Virus record (IMG/VR): IMGVR_UViG_3300042508_000021 | Location: 1 to 33,037 of that record | Reading direction: 5' to 3' (one strand) | Source: a virus | DNA: 33,037 nt | Shown here: in pieces, positions 16,236 through 28,285 of the stretch | Position numbering within the stretch: the first letter of the stretch is position 1 | How the letters are laid out: each line of letters opens with the position of its first letter | Notes under the pieces: model-generated | Seen by the model: the letters and a program-made list of their open reading frames with translations, nothing else | Database searches by the model: none | What the model was told of the DNA's origin: nothing | Position numbers and translations under genes: made by a program

Positions 16236-16415
16236 ATGAAGATCAAAGCATCAACCCTCGCCAAAGCTCTGGAAGCAATCGAGTGGGCAAACAACCAGAT
16301 GACCAAGGATCGGCCAGACACTCTGTCGTTTTTGGCAACCCTGGATGCCAAAATCAACATCAAGGTGGTTCTGGAGTCTTTGCAGGTAGAGGTCGAGGAT
16401 GAGTACCTGCGTTGA
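16236..16415 (+). CDS. 59-residue unknown helical protein
   Basis: ATG 16236 opens a complete 59-codon frame with AAGGAG five bases upstream. The product begins MKIKASTLAKALEAIEWANN, continues with DTLSFLATLDAKINIKV, and ends acidic (VEVEDEYLR). It is probably all helical. It overlaps the following zinc-ribbon gene by 17 bases, like its neighbours. The strong ribosome site and gapless packing support it as a real gene. No family recognised. Confidence 0.65.
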   Translation: MKIKASTLAKALEAIEWANNQMTKDRPDTLSFLATLDAKINIKVVLESLQVEVEDEYLR

Positions 16416-16590
16416 GTGTGGTTCTTGGTCATCCAAGACACTGGAAACAAGAAAAGACACTCGATACTGGTGGATCTGGAGAAGGAAGAAATGTCAGGAC
16501 TGCGGTACGGTTTGGGCCACATACGAGGTTCCAGCGCAGTCACTGACAGCAGAAACGGCAAACCCCGATGGAAAACTGGAGCGAAGATGA
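16399..16590 (+). CDS. Zinc-ribbon protein, NrdR/transcription-factor-like
   Basis: A 63-residue protein with two cysteine pairs: CVECG at residues 4-8 and CQDCG at 32-36. Between them lie TLETRKDTRYWWIWRRKK, and VWATYEVP follows. The order CxxCG-x(n)-RRRxCxxCGxxFxTYE is that of the NrdR-type zinc ribbon, but the ATP-cone is absent. It may bind DNA or a protein partner. It starts within the previous gene and ends in an ATGA overlap with the next. Confidence 0.68.
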   Translation: MSTCVECGSWSSKTLETRKDTRYWWIWRRKKCQDCGTVWATYEVPAQSLTAETANPDGKLERR

Positions 16591-16850: not shown

Positions 16851-17062
16851 TGCAACAGGACAATCCAGAAACTGATTCCACACTGTTCTTCAGAACAATG
16901 GACACGTGTCCGATCAACAAAAAAGTGCAGTTGCTGAATCGGGCTGGCATATCAACAATCGACTGGTGGAACGGGACAGACCAATGGTTTGTCGGTTGGT
17001 TCCCGCTGCCAAAGATCCCAGAACAAATTAAGAAGGAGTTGTTTCATGGAAGCAGAAATTGA
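16850..17062 (+). CDS. DUF551-like small protein
   Basis: A 70-residue protein starting MQQDNPETDSTLFFRTMDTC. The segment PINKKVQLLNRAGISTIDWW, then F-GWFPLPKIPEQ, resembles the DUF551 pattern, in which a short beta sheet ends in a WMPLPxPP motif. DUF551 proteins are common in phages and have no established function. The start overlaps the previous stop by one base. Assignment is by motif resemblance. Confidence 0.6.
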   Translation: MQQDNPETDSTLFFRTMDTCPINKKVQLLNRAGISTIDWWNGTDQWFVGWFPLPKIPEQIKKELFHGSRN

Positions 17063-17546
17063 ACAGACCTACAAAGGCATCCCAGAACAGCGATTGGTCG
17101 CAGCAGTTGTTGTCACTGCAATGCGAGACGCTTGCATCAAGCCATTCAAACCATTCGGAGAAAAACACTTCAAACTGACATTCGACTGTTTAACCGCTCA
17201 CGATTTTCTTTGGACAGATGCGCTAGAGAGTTATCTGCACTACCTGGACATCGAGGTGAGTTACTTCCGCAAAGCATTGCTCAAAGCAATGGACAATGAT
17301 ACGGAGAAAAAGATTGGATCATTCACATCAGAAGACAGACGAGCATTCCGGTTCAATAAACGACTCTGGGATGCTCAACAATCCGGTGGATTGGTCAAGC
17401 CATTGGCTGACCCTGAATCAGATGACTGGAAATCTGTGGATCCAACTTTTGAGCAAAAACTACAACGAAGCTCAAAATTTGTTGGTGGAAATGGCAACAC
17501 AAGCCAGACTTATGTCTCAGTTCCTCAAAATCCAGAAGGAGTCTGA
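17046..17546 (+). CDS. Unknown phage protein, helical
   Basis: A 166-residue protein starting MEAEIEQTYKGIPEQRLVAA at ATG 17046, with AAGGAG seven bases upstream. The first 110 residues resemble a phage family in which A-x-A-V-x-D-A helices precede AHDFLWTDALESYLHYLDI and then a recognition-like helix (VSYFRKALLKAM). The C-terminus is polar and probably disordered (RSSKFVGGNGNTSQTYVSVP). A DNA-binding or regulatory role is possible but not shown. It directly precedes the MazG-like gene. Confidence 0.65.
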   Translation: MEAEIEQTYKGIPEQRLVAAVVVTAMRDACIKPFKPFGEKHFKLTFDCLTAHDFLWTDALESYLHYLDIEVSYFRKALLKAMDNDTEKKIGSFTSEDRRAFRFNKRLWDAQQSGGLVKPLADPESDDWKSVDPTFEQKLQRSSKFVGGNGNTSQTYVSVPQNPEGV

Positions 17547-17548
17547 TC

Positions 17549-17869
17549 ATGCCAACAATGTCTTTCGATGATCTGTATGTCCGAGTTGTAGGCTGGTCTA
17601 GGGCCAGACAGATCATCCCAAACTCAACCGCTAACGCTCAGTTCCTGAAAATGGTCAGCGAGATGGGTGAGCTTGCAGACGGTATTGCAAAAAAAGACGT
17701 TGCTCTCACGGCTGATGCTGTTGGTGATGTTCTGGTCTGCATGATCAACTTCTGTGAGCTTGCAGGGCTGGATATGGTTGATTGCTTGGAAGGTGCTTAC
17801 AACGAGATCAAAGACCGGAAAGGCACTCTCATGCCAAACGGCGTATTCATCAAGGAGACAATTGTATGA
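17549..17869 (+). CDS. MazG-like nucleotide pyrophosphohydrolase
   Basis: A 106-residue all-helical protein. The metal-binding helix pair is SEMGELADG at residues 37-45 (Glu38, Glu41) and ADAVGDVLVCMINFCELAG at 55-73 (Asp56, Asp60). This is the MazG/dUTPase-superfamily layout in which a nucleoside triphosphate is cut to the monophosphate and pyrophosphate. Phage members clean non-canonical nucleotides or lower (p)ppGpp. The second motif has Ala where classic MazG has Glu, as in many phage variants. AAGGAG lies seven bases upstream, and the stop overlaps the next ATG. Confidence 0.82.
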   Translation: MPTMSFDDLYVRVVGWSRARQIIPNSTANAQFLKMVSEMGELADGIAKKDVALTADAVGDVLVCMINFCELAGLDMVDCLEGAYNEIKDRKGTLMPNGVFIKETIV

Positions 17870-18048
17870 GACTGCAAACCGACTGCTATGTGCTTCGCGG
17901 CATCACCTGGGTTCCGCATTGGATGAAGCCTGGAAAGTTTGTCTCACCGGGTTATGGTCGGCAACACATGGTCGAGATGACAGCGCAAGAGTTGCTGGTG
18001 AAAGGCGCACAAAAGCAACCAGAACTGCTGTTTCCGTCTGCAAGATAA
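17866..18048 (+). CDS. 60-residue unknown protein, possible leader of the attenuator
   Basis: A short protein starting MRLQTDCYVLRGITWVPHWM inside the MazG stop (ATGA). It has many aromatic residues and ends PELLFPSAR. No family recognised. Its stop codon (18046-18048) lies four bases before the left arm of the first attenuator hairpin. A terminating ribosome would therefore cover that arm. It may act as a real protein, as a translated leader, or both. Confidence 0.6.
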   Translation: MRLQTDCYVLRGITWVPHWMKPGKFVSPGYGRQHMVEMTAQELLVKGAQKQPELLFPSAR

Positions 18049-18052
18049 ATCT

Positions 18053-18121
18053 GGCACAATTGGGGCGCTCCTTCCTTGGGTGTCTCCCCGATTGTGCCTC
18101 CTGCGTGGAGGCACTTTTTTT
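18053..18121 (+). promoter_or_regulatory. Attenuator: two mutually exclusive hairpins, second hides a ribosome site
   Basis: First fold: GGCACAAT-T-GGGG (18053-18065) pairs with CCCC-G-ATTGTGCC (18086-18098), 13 pairs including one G-U. Second fold: GTGCCTCC (18094-18101) pairs with GGAGGCAC (18107-18114) and is followed by seven Ts, a textbook terminator. The two share 18094-18098, so only one can form. The GGAGG in the second stem is also the ribosome site for the TTG start at 18120. Confidence 0.72.
18094..18121 (+). terminator. Intrinsic terminator before the glycosyltransferase gene
   Basis: GTGCCTCC, loop TGCGT, GGAGGCAC, then TTTTTTT. Perfect eight-pair stem with seven Ts. It lies immediately ahead of, and partly within, the start region of the downstream gene. 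Confidence 0.85.
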
Positions 18122-18731
18122 GATACCAAAACGATTGCATTTTGTCTGGGTGGGCGATGAGTCCAAACGTCCAGACGCAGAGATCCAGTCTTGGATTGAC
18201 AAGAATCCAACCTACAAGGTTAAGGTATGGGGCAACAGCGACCTGAAAGAAGGCTGGCTCCTTGCCAAGCATATGCGGCACTTCAGTCAGCGAGAGCTAT
18301 GCGGTGTTGCCGACTGCATGAGGTGGGAGATCCTCTACAACCACGGTGGGATCGCACTGGATGCTGATAGTCTGTGCGTCAGACCACTAGAGGACTGGCT
18401 GCTGGAGCCGGATGTCTTTGCATCCTGGGAGTCAGAGACAAAGCGTCCAGGACTGATCGCAAACGGTGTGGTCGGATCAGTCCCGCGCCATCCGTTCATC
18501 GGTCAGATCATCAAAGACCTGGAAAACGACACTCCAGGCGATAGGATGGCTTGGGAGTTCTCAGGGCCAGCACGAATCACTCAGACAATGCACGAGCATG
18601 AGTTCAGCGATCTCACTGTTTATCCGAGCCACTATTTCCTGCCTGAACACTTTGCTGGCTCCAGCTACAAGGGCAAAGGACAGGTATTTGCAACGCAGGA
18701 ATGGAAAAGCACAAGAGGTGGCTGGAAATGA
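18120..18731 (+). CDS. GT32-like glycosyltransferase (TTG start)
   Basis: A 203-residue enzyme of the glycosyltransferase-32 / DXD-sugar family. I start at TTG 18120, which gives MIPKRLHFVWVGD, the canonical N-terminus. GGAGG lies eight bases upstream inside the terminator stem. VADCMRWEILYNHGG (63-77) and LDADS with the metal-binding DxD at 81-83 are the family signatures. It would transfer a sugar from a nucleotide-sugar donor; the acceptor is unknown and could be host surface, virion or DNA. Its frame stays open far upstream without a better start. The stop overlaps the next ATG. Confidence 0.82.
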   Translation: MIPKRLHFVWVGDESKRPDAEIQSWIDKNPTYKVKVWGNSDLKEGWLLAKHMRHFSQRELCGVADCMRWEILYNHGGIALDADSLCVRPLEDWLLEPDVFASWESETKRPGLIANGVVGSVPRHPFIGQIIKDLENDTPGDRMAWEFSGPARITQTMHEHEFSDLTVYPSHYFLPEHFAGSSYKGKGQVFATQEWKSTRGGWK

Positions 18732-20040: not shown

Positions 20041-20333
20041 AGTCGCCAGCATGGACTCGCAAGGCCGGTAAAAGCCCGTCTGGTGGACTGAACGAGGCTG
20101 GGCGGAAGTCTTACGAAAGAGCTAATCCAGGATCAGACCTGAAGGCTCCTGTTAAGGCTGGTGACAATCCGCGCAGGGCATCATTCCTGGCTAGGATGGG
20201 TGGTATGCCTGGGCCAGAGTTCAAGGACGGAAAACCAACCCGTCTGCTGCTGTCACTGAAAGCATGGGGTGCGTCATCCAAGGCTGATGCCAAGGCTAAA
20301 GCTAAGGCTATCAGCGAACGCAATAAAAAGTGA
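20037..20333 (+). CDS. DUF6321-like protein
   Basis: A 98-residue basic protein: SPAWTRKAGKSPSGGLNEAG (3-22), RKSYERANPGSDLKAPV, then PRRASFLARMGGMPGPEFKD and GKPTRLLLSLKAWGASS. These blocks match the DUF6321 pattern found in phages infecting many hosts, of unknown function. The high Lys/Arg/Gly content and conserved W-T-R-K and RMGGMPGP motifs suggest binding to nucleic acid or a virion component. ATGA and GTGA overlaps join it to both neighbours. Confidence 0.78.
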   Translation: MKSPAWTRKAGKSPSGGLNEAGRKSYERANPGSDLKAPVKAGDNPRRASFLARMGGMPGPEFKDGKPTRLLLSLKAWGASSKADAKAKAKAISERNKK

Positions 20334-21022
20334 TCGTAAACCACGATCCATATTGGCATTGTGTGATAGATGACTTCTTCACCAACCCAGATCAGCTAGC
20401 AGAAGAGTTCCCGCAGCCAGACGATCCATGCTGGTTTCGGTATGACAATCCGTTAGAGGTCAAGCGTACCTGCAACGACTGGCACAGGTTCCCGCCAGAG
20501 ACATACAAGACCTTTGCTTGGCTAACCAGCGACAGGTTCACAGCTAACCTCGAGGCGATGGTTGACGAGGATCTGTTCGCTGACCAAGGATTGCACGGTG
20601 GTGGCTGGCATCAGCACAGCAGAGGAGGGAAGCTAAATGTTCACCTGGATTACAACATCCATCCAAAGCTACACCTACAACGTAGGCTTAACCTTATTGT
20701 TTACCTGTCTGCTACATGGGAATCGTCCTGGGGTGGTGGGTTGGGTCTGTACAAGGACAGCAGAACTCTTGCAAAGGTCATTGAGCCGAAGTTCAACAGG
20801 GCAGTGATCTTCGACACCAGAGGCTCATGGCATGGACTGCCTGATCCAATCAAATGTCCTGCTGATGTAACCAGAAACTCAATCGCTGTATACTATTTGT
20901 CTGAACCGGCAACAACCACAGACAATCGTAAGAGAGCATTGTTTGCACCAACACCGGAGCAGATGGGTGATCCAGAGATCGAAAGGCTGATTAAGGATCG
21001 AGTGAAACCGATGACCCGTTAG
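20330..21022 (+). CDS. 2-oxoglutarate/Fe(II)-dependent oxygenase
   Basis: A 230-residue enzyme of the prolyl-4-hydroxylase-like 2OG-Fe(II) superfamily, starting at GTG within a GTGA overlap (MIVNHDPYWHCVIDDFF). His105-x-Asp107 (NVHLDYN) and distal His168 (SWHGLPDP) are the iron ligands. Arg182 (TRNSIAVYYL) binds 2-oxoglutarate. LNLIVYLSATWESSWGGGL (120-138) is the typical core strand. Such enzymes hydroxylate protein, sugar or nucleic-acid side groups. The neighbouring glycosyltransferases and methylase suggest a modification pathway, but the substrate is unknown. Confidence 0.88.
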   Translation: MIVNHDPYWHCVIDDFFTNPDQLAEEFPQPDDPCWFRYDNPLEVKRTCNDWHRFPPETYKTFAWLTSDRFTANLEAMVDEDLFADQGLHGGGWHQHSRGGKLNVHLDYNIHPKLHLQRRLNLIVYLSATWESSWGGGLGLYKDSRTLAKVIEPKFNRAVIFDTRGSWHGLPDPIKCPADVTRNSIAVYYLSEPATTTDNRKRALFAPTPEQMGDPEIERLIKDRVKPMTR

Positions 21023-28237: not shown

Positions 28238-28254
28238 TCAGTAATGACTGATGG

Positions 28255-28285
28255 GAGGGAGTGGGGAAACCTGCTCCCTCTTTTT
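28255..28285 (+). terminator. Intrinsic terminator after the major capsid gene
   Basis: GAGGGAG (28255-28261) pairs with CTCCCTC (28274-28280), with extra GG/CC pairing in the loop, then TTTTT (28281-28285). A partial stop here would keep capsid transcript levels above those of the following genes. Confidence 0.8.

Follow-up and report, generated by a model that had tools for sequence, protein, structure and literature searches.

About 70 bases upstream of the glycosyltransferase (GT) gene in the window, the window being the whole 33-kb stretch of phage DNA that was analysed, are probably an attenuator at the boundary of the early and late genes, with the late genes expressed by read-through; the probability of this reading is put at roughly 0.55. 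The element consists of a hairpin, H1, and an intrinsic terminator, T, and is a real and conserved feature, although what is shown is its conservation in sequence and its calculated folding, and any reading that goes further is interpretive.

Anatomy of the element

The features of the region are as follows.

17866-18048, + strand: 60-codon gene, the last early gene, with its stop codon at 18046-18048 and an ATGA overlap with the MazG-like gene
18031-18060, + strand: candidate promoter TTTCCG-18-CACAAT with a TG extension (TGGCACAAT), a weak match when taken alone
18053-18065, + strand: H1 left arm, GGCACAAT-U-GGGG, including the -10-like CACAAT at 18055-18060
18067-18087, + strand: pyrimidine-rich H1 loop region, GCTCCTTCCTTGGGTGTCTCC, with TCTCC at 18083-18087
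18086-18098, + strand: H1 right arm, CCCC-G-AUUGUGCC, of which 18094-18098 is common with T
18094-18121, + strand: intrinsic terminator T, with an 8-pair stem, a 5-nt loop and U7
18107-18111, + strand: GGAGG, the Shine-Dalgarno sequence (SD) of GT, within the T 3' arm and 8 nt before the TTG at 18120
18120-18731, + strand: GT (DXD, Gly_transf_sug), the first late gene, whose TTG start overlaps the U-tract

An earlier note on this DNA had described a 13-pair first hairpin and a perfect 8-pair second stem with seven Ts. Both descriptions were borne out, and the coordinates of the two hairpins were all exact when the sequence was rechecked. Twelve of the H1 pairs are Watson-Crick and one is U.G. 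The T stem joins GUGCCUCC (18094-18101) to GGAGGCAC (18107-18114) in 8 perfect pairs, followed by T7 at 18115-18121, and shares the bases 18094-18098 (GUGCC) with H1. The region folds beyond chance (z = -3.54, with none of 200 shuffles equally stable), and when the 49-nt leader was shuffled 500 times, a 13-pair helix was reached once.

The GT protein matched PF04488 with 34.1 bits (cut-off 23). The TTG at 18120 had been taken as its start, in agreement with residues M1-I2-P3-K4, which are invariant from this codon in 11 aligned homologues having ATG, GTG or TTG as the start codon. The GGAGG had been named as the sole SD for this codon, and no second SD was found in the sequence. Its location within the T 3' arm supports the proposal that the terminator also masks the ribosome site of GT. 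Since the SD lies in T and the start codon directly after it, the GT mRNA must read through T.

Position at the early/late boundary

The window is an SU10-like phage (portal PF23899, capsid PF17236) of a freshwater group; the isolated phages with the nearest capsids have Methylophilales, Sinorhizobium and Bradyrhizobium as hosts. Its early genes, from about 11 to 18.05 kb, include a methyltransferase, NinB, a helicase loader, an NrdR-like zinc ribbon, a conserved 166-residue protein, a MazG-like protein and the 60-codon gene. After GT come a second gene, a 2OG oxygenase, a ParB-methyltransferase, the terminase, portal, scaffold, capsid and tail genes and the lysis genes. The relatives examined share this gene order, again on a single strand, with NinB, the helicase loader and the rest of the early side preceding GT, terminase, portal and capsid, and because the order is kept the element sits at the early/late boundary. 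This boundary was missed in the earlier note, as was a likely local promoter with its -10 overlapping the H1 left arm. Intrinsic terminators are rare in this group, and only one or two per genome were recurrent, before GT and after the capsid gene, and a terminator was present immediately 5' of GT in 9 of 11 relatives. The other conserved terminator, at 28254-28281 just past the major capsid gene, was present in several relatives. The 2OG-Fe(II) oxygenase gene (20330-21022), at the start of the late region, is also kept in relatives.

Relatives and the candidate promoter

Two GT searches yielded 22 and 80 loci; the comparison covered ~100 viral loci. The sequences upstream of GT fell into eight cassette-bearing classes (W, A-F and X) and a group without the cassette. 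The cassette has the order -10-like box, usually YTCTCC, terminator, U6-8 and start codon, with the intrinsic terminator between the candidate promoter and the first late gene. In W, to which the window belongs, and in A-F the SD (GGAGG, GGGGGA or AGGGG) is the purine-rich 3' arm of the terminator stem itself and the U-tract is the spacer; class X (L124) has a separate SD 3' of the U-tract. All classes agree in where the GT protein begins. In 7 of the 8 classes the motif YTCTCC follows the -10-like box, whereas a 30-nt stretch would be expected to contain it in about 1-4% of cases.

The cassette is not indispensable, since the subclade L115, L117-L128 has neither the cassette nor such a terminator, and GT overlaps the upstream gene there. 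Probable loss of the cassette in these loci is indicated by the GT tree, where they adjoin class D. The public phage MW202462 carries a TTCTCC-plus-terminator element two genes further upstream, with no clear promoter. A pattern scan found similar CTCTCC-terminators elsewhere too; among the matches listed, the layout from promoter to start codon occurred only before GT in this group, and the notion of a widespread phage device was rejected. Also seen was a conserved two-hairpin end, AGGAGCAGTTGCC(A/G)CTCTCCTT and then a GC-rich terminator, in L253, L255, L258, L278, L289, L291, L293 and L303. It occurs in many other viral contigs and is unrelated to the GT cassette.

The promoter of the window rests mainly on positional homology, since its own match has a p of 0.15. 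For eight class representatives combined, p was 2e-6 against shuffles and 4e-5 against the background of the same loci, the best case being class C with TCGACA-17-TACAAT. The position at the boundary is of the type of lambdoid PR'-tR', with a promoter match that is significant over the eight classes and weak in the window. The -10-like box within the H1 left arm is CACAAT in W and GATAAT in B. Local transcripts are predicted to start at about 18067, ~7 nt past the -10-like box, and would lack H1 because the H1 left arm overlaps this box.

Proposed mechanism

At the level of sequence, the anatomy, position and conservation of the element and its base-pair complementarity across classes could be shown. 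For promoter use, termination efficiency, a read-through factor and the effect of H1, we infer the following. A local sigma70-type promoter within the end of the last early gene would produce a short leader RNA, of about 35-70 nt across the classes, which would end at T. As the T 3' arm doubles as the SD for GT, a single element would both stop transcription and lock out the ribosome, and the late genes would be expressed only by read-through, either with a putative factor or by basal leak of the terminator. In the window phage and in class B, H1 would in addition compete for five bases of T. RNA started locally, without H1, would complete T and close the SD, and RNA coming from the early operon with H1 would have T weakened and the SD partly open.

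A different account of the same region is that T is a plain terminator of the early operon, with H1 an incidental 3' hairpin and the late genes served by another promoter. The location of T shortly after the early operon, the weakness of the window promoter and the restriction of H1 to some classes agree with this; however, the SD and start codon of GT lie in or right after T and force read-through, the promoter signal is significant over the classes, and H1 pairing is kept in both W and B, which makes this account unlikely. Still less likely is that the leader, once terminated, serves chiefly as a small RNA acting in trans (StxS-, IsrK- or mmgR-like) with a YUCUCC anti-SD seed and a U-tail, as the recurrent YTCTCC, the U6-8 tail, a weak mmgR-like match and the precedent of StxS from lambdoid late leaders (PMC7873438) might suggest, given that the mmgR score was 17.7 against a gathering score of 41 and none was found in relatives.

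Competition between H1 and T

The attenuator proposed here was examined by calculated folding. The two hairpins had been claimed to exclude each other. The bases 18094-18098 are indeed contested, but the exclusion is only partial, as it concerns 5 of the 13 and 8 pairs, and six branch-migration states of H1 and T were within 0.9 kcal/mol (-24.0 to -24.9). The sequence GGCAC is present twice, at 18053-18057 and at 18110-18114, so that GUGCC has two possible partners. At equilibrium the probability of the complete T stem was 0.13 with the H1 left arm and 0.99 for RNA beginning at 18058 or later, and the calculated unpaired fraction of GGAGG was 0.27-0.46 with this arm and 0.00 without it. RNA from the candidate local promoter of class W or B, when folded alone, was calculated to form the complete terminator.

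A more specific version of the mechanism can be considered for these classes, in which the 5' arm of the antiterminator is also the local -10 and the starting point of the polymerase would decide whether T and the ribosome lock close. Through-transcripts of the early operon would include the arm and leak onward into the late genes, and local transcripts could not. We regard such sensing of the transcript origin as a tentative reading and rather unlikely.

H1 in two classes

An H1 competing with T was found only in classes W and B; A, C, D, E, F and X have no competitor. In class B it is GGGATAAT..GGGG / CCCC..GTTATCCC and likewise overlaps the T 5' arm. When 12 distinct sequences of classes W and B were aligned, pairing was kept in 94.8% of cells for H1 (50.7-63.0% when slid) and in 94.8% for T (47.9-64.6% when slid). 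Two sets of columns showed three-way changes, 3/45/61 being C/G/C or G/C/G and 5/43/63 being C/G/C or U/A/U; as they co-vary, the base of the shared arm fits both partners. Within class W, one U-A pair is deleted on both sides of H1 in L004 and L008, and a C-G pair replaces the U.G in L017.

The earlier note had named covariation in both stems as a test of the switch, and between the H1 classes W and B such covariation was found. It had also held that homologues lacking one stem would speak against it; six of the device classes are of this kind, keeping T and having no H1. In the GT tree W and B are not sisters, and B joins A, which has no H1. H1 may therefore have arisen twice, or once with several later losses, and the three-way covariation of W and B may stem from two separate origins and not from compensatory change. 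Since the independent events are few and B groups with A, the covariation is support and not proof. The distance between the arms of H1 varies from 17 to 20 nt among W relatives, which suits an RNA hairpin better than a dyad at the DNA level, and the latter was disfavoured.

Translation of the leader

The upstream 60-residue gene ends at 18048 as had been described, with its stop codon 4 nt before H1, and in all loci bearing H1 the stop codon is 3-7 nt before it. In W, A and B the cassette is preceded by homologues of this gene, 32-93% identical; residues 2-60 had no match in Pfam. A role as partner of the cassette was rejected, because the family also precedes unrelated genes without the cassette in other phages. 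According to the earlier note, a ribosome finishing the 60-codon gene would cover the H1 left arm, favour T and lower GT output. The sign of this effect agrees with the folding, where removal of 18053-18057 raised the probability of the complete terminator from 0.13 to 0.99, but the effect is not general. A terminating ribosome can itself repress a terminator within about 27 nt (PMC4824070). The window, with 45 nt from the stop codon to T, is beyond this range, and this distance is 5 to 57 nt across the cassette classes (for classes B and D, where the automated frame choice differed, it was also read by hand). Where H1 is absent, mostly 5-24 nt separate the stop codon and the stem, with 57 nt in X.

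The distance in the window, the stop codon abutting H1 and the effect of losing 18053-18057 favour the ribosome model, and the contested GGCAC would be within the footprint of a ribosome at the stop, so that such an effect is compatible with class W and a leader-translation switch is possible in the window phage. As a general mechanism, however, it was not supported, given that the six device classes without H1 keep T and the U-tract but lack the conserved alternative hairpins of a ribosome-controlled attenuator. In C, D, E and F the stop precedes the stem by about 5-21 nt, a distance at which a ribosome would be expected to block the terminator, an effect of opposite sign, and the upstream gene has neither a regulatory run of codons nor the character of a leader peptide. 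The model as a whole is therefore unlikely. In the classes without H1, a ribosome at the nearby stop could itself prevent termination. Leakage of translated through-transcripts might thus be common to all classes, though achieved by differing means; this is only a suggestion, since H1 itself adds to the distance from stop to terminator.

Search for a read-through factor

No match to a Q or antitermination family was found among the early proteins scanned (the early set less some small ORFs). The best candidate was the early protein with the highest conservation (17046-17546; 18 homologues and 17 invariant columns), which has a confident core in its predicted structure. As a Q-like factor it was not upheld, having neither a sequence relative nor a fold match in the PDB, only unnamed phage proteins as matches in BFVD, no match in isolated phages, and no similarity to gp37 of phage Venkman, which is annotated as antitermination-like. 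Its gene overlaps the early gene 17371-17571 out of frame by about 175 bases, and homologues of both are found in relatives; in class C the first gene ends earlier and the overlap is about 40 bases. A stand-alone zinc ribbon of 63 residues (16399-16590) like the NrdR N-terminal domain (PF22811) is present in the early regions of many relatives and is a possible late regulator. If the main reading is true, the boundary element marks where a putative antiterminator should act, and the adjacent early genes are candidates for it.

Comparison with known systems

By analogy, the element resembles lambda PR'-tR' or an attenuator of the ampC type. The ampC attenuator of E. coli, at the end of frdD, has its promoter within the end of the upstream gene and a single terminator that closes the upstream operon while attenuating the gene after it, with growth-rate control by ribosome binding to the leader. 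Its SD is not known to lie in the terminator arm. The phage element is similar in having a candidate promoter within the end of the upstream gene and one terminator for both roles, ampC being bacterial. In lambdoid phages, PR'-tR' combines a late promoter, a terminator and the antiterminator Q (PMC6606751). The features in common are an intrinsic terminator before the first late gene and, as far as the candidate promoter of the window goes, a promoter located where the early region ends and a short leader. Unlike PR'-tR', the window has no Q homologue among the early proteins scanned, the 3' arm of its terminator is the SD, the start codon follows the U-tract, and H1 lies over the -10. The AlpA-controlled alpB promoter of P. 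aeruginosa is followed by an intrinsic terminator, and polymerase gets past it only if a factor has been loaded at the promoter (PMC7969949). There too the terminator is just 5' of the first gene of the operon, a lysis operon in that case, but no AlpA homologue was demonstrated here and no competing hairpin is described for alpB. Transcription/translation attenuators such as that of Bacillus vmlR involve a ribosome stalled on an internal uORF, separate terminator and SD hairpins and an anti-antiterminator (PMC9226507); alternative hairpins and control of both termination and SD access are shared with them, whereas the phage uses one hairpin for termination and SD masking.

At the gathering threshold of Rfam, neither the window nor the class representatives had a match. 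The only Rfam match was to suhB/mmgR (RF00519), with a similar CUUCCUUGGG..UCUCC core before the terminator; membership was rejected at 17.7 bits against 41, and the core is not kept in the relatives L004, L008 and L017. A true alphaproteobacterial mmgR/suhB match, with 57.6 bits and above the threshold, was seen in L046 (2919-3002), and the same core motif, below threshold, in L042 and L045.

Judged by sequence comparison, the element looks like a novel form of the promoter-leader-terminator attenuators known for phage late genes, in which the SD is merged into the terminator and, in two lineages, a putative antiterminator arm overlaps the candidate promoter. If these readings are true, the terminator, the ribosome site and the promoter are merged in one element, and about 70 bases would time the change from early to late genes in an uncultivated phage group. 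In that case the element would also be a small and testable model for attenuation in which the origin of the transcript is sensed.
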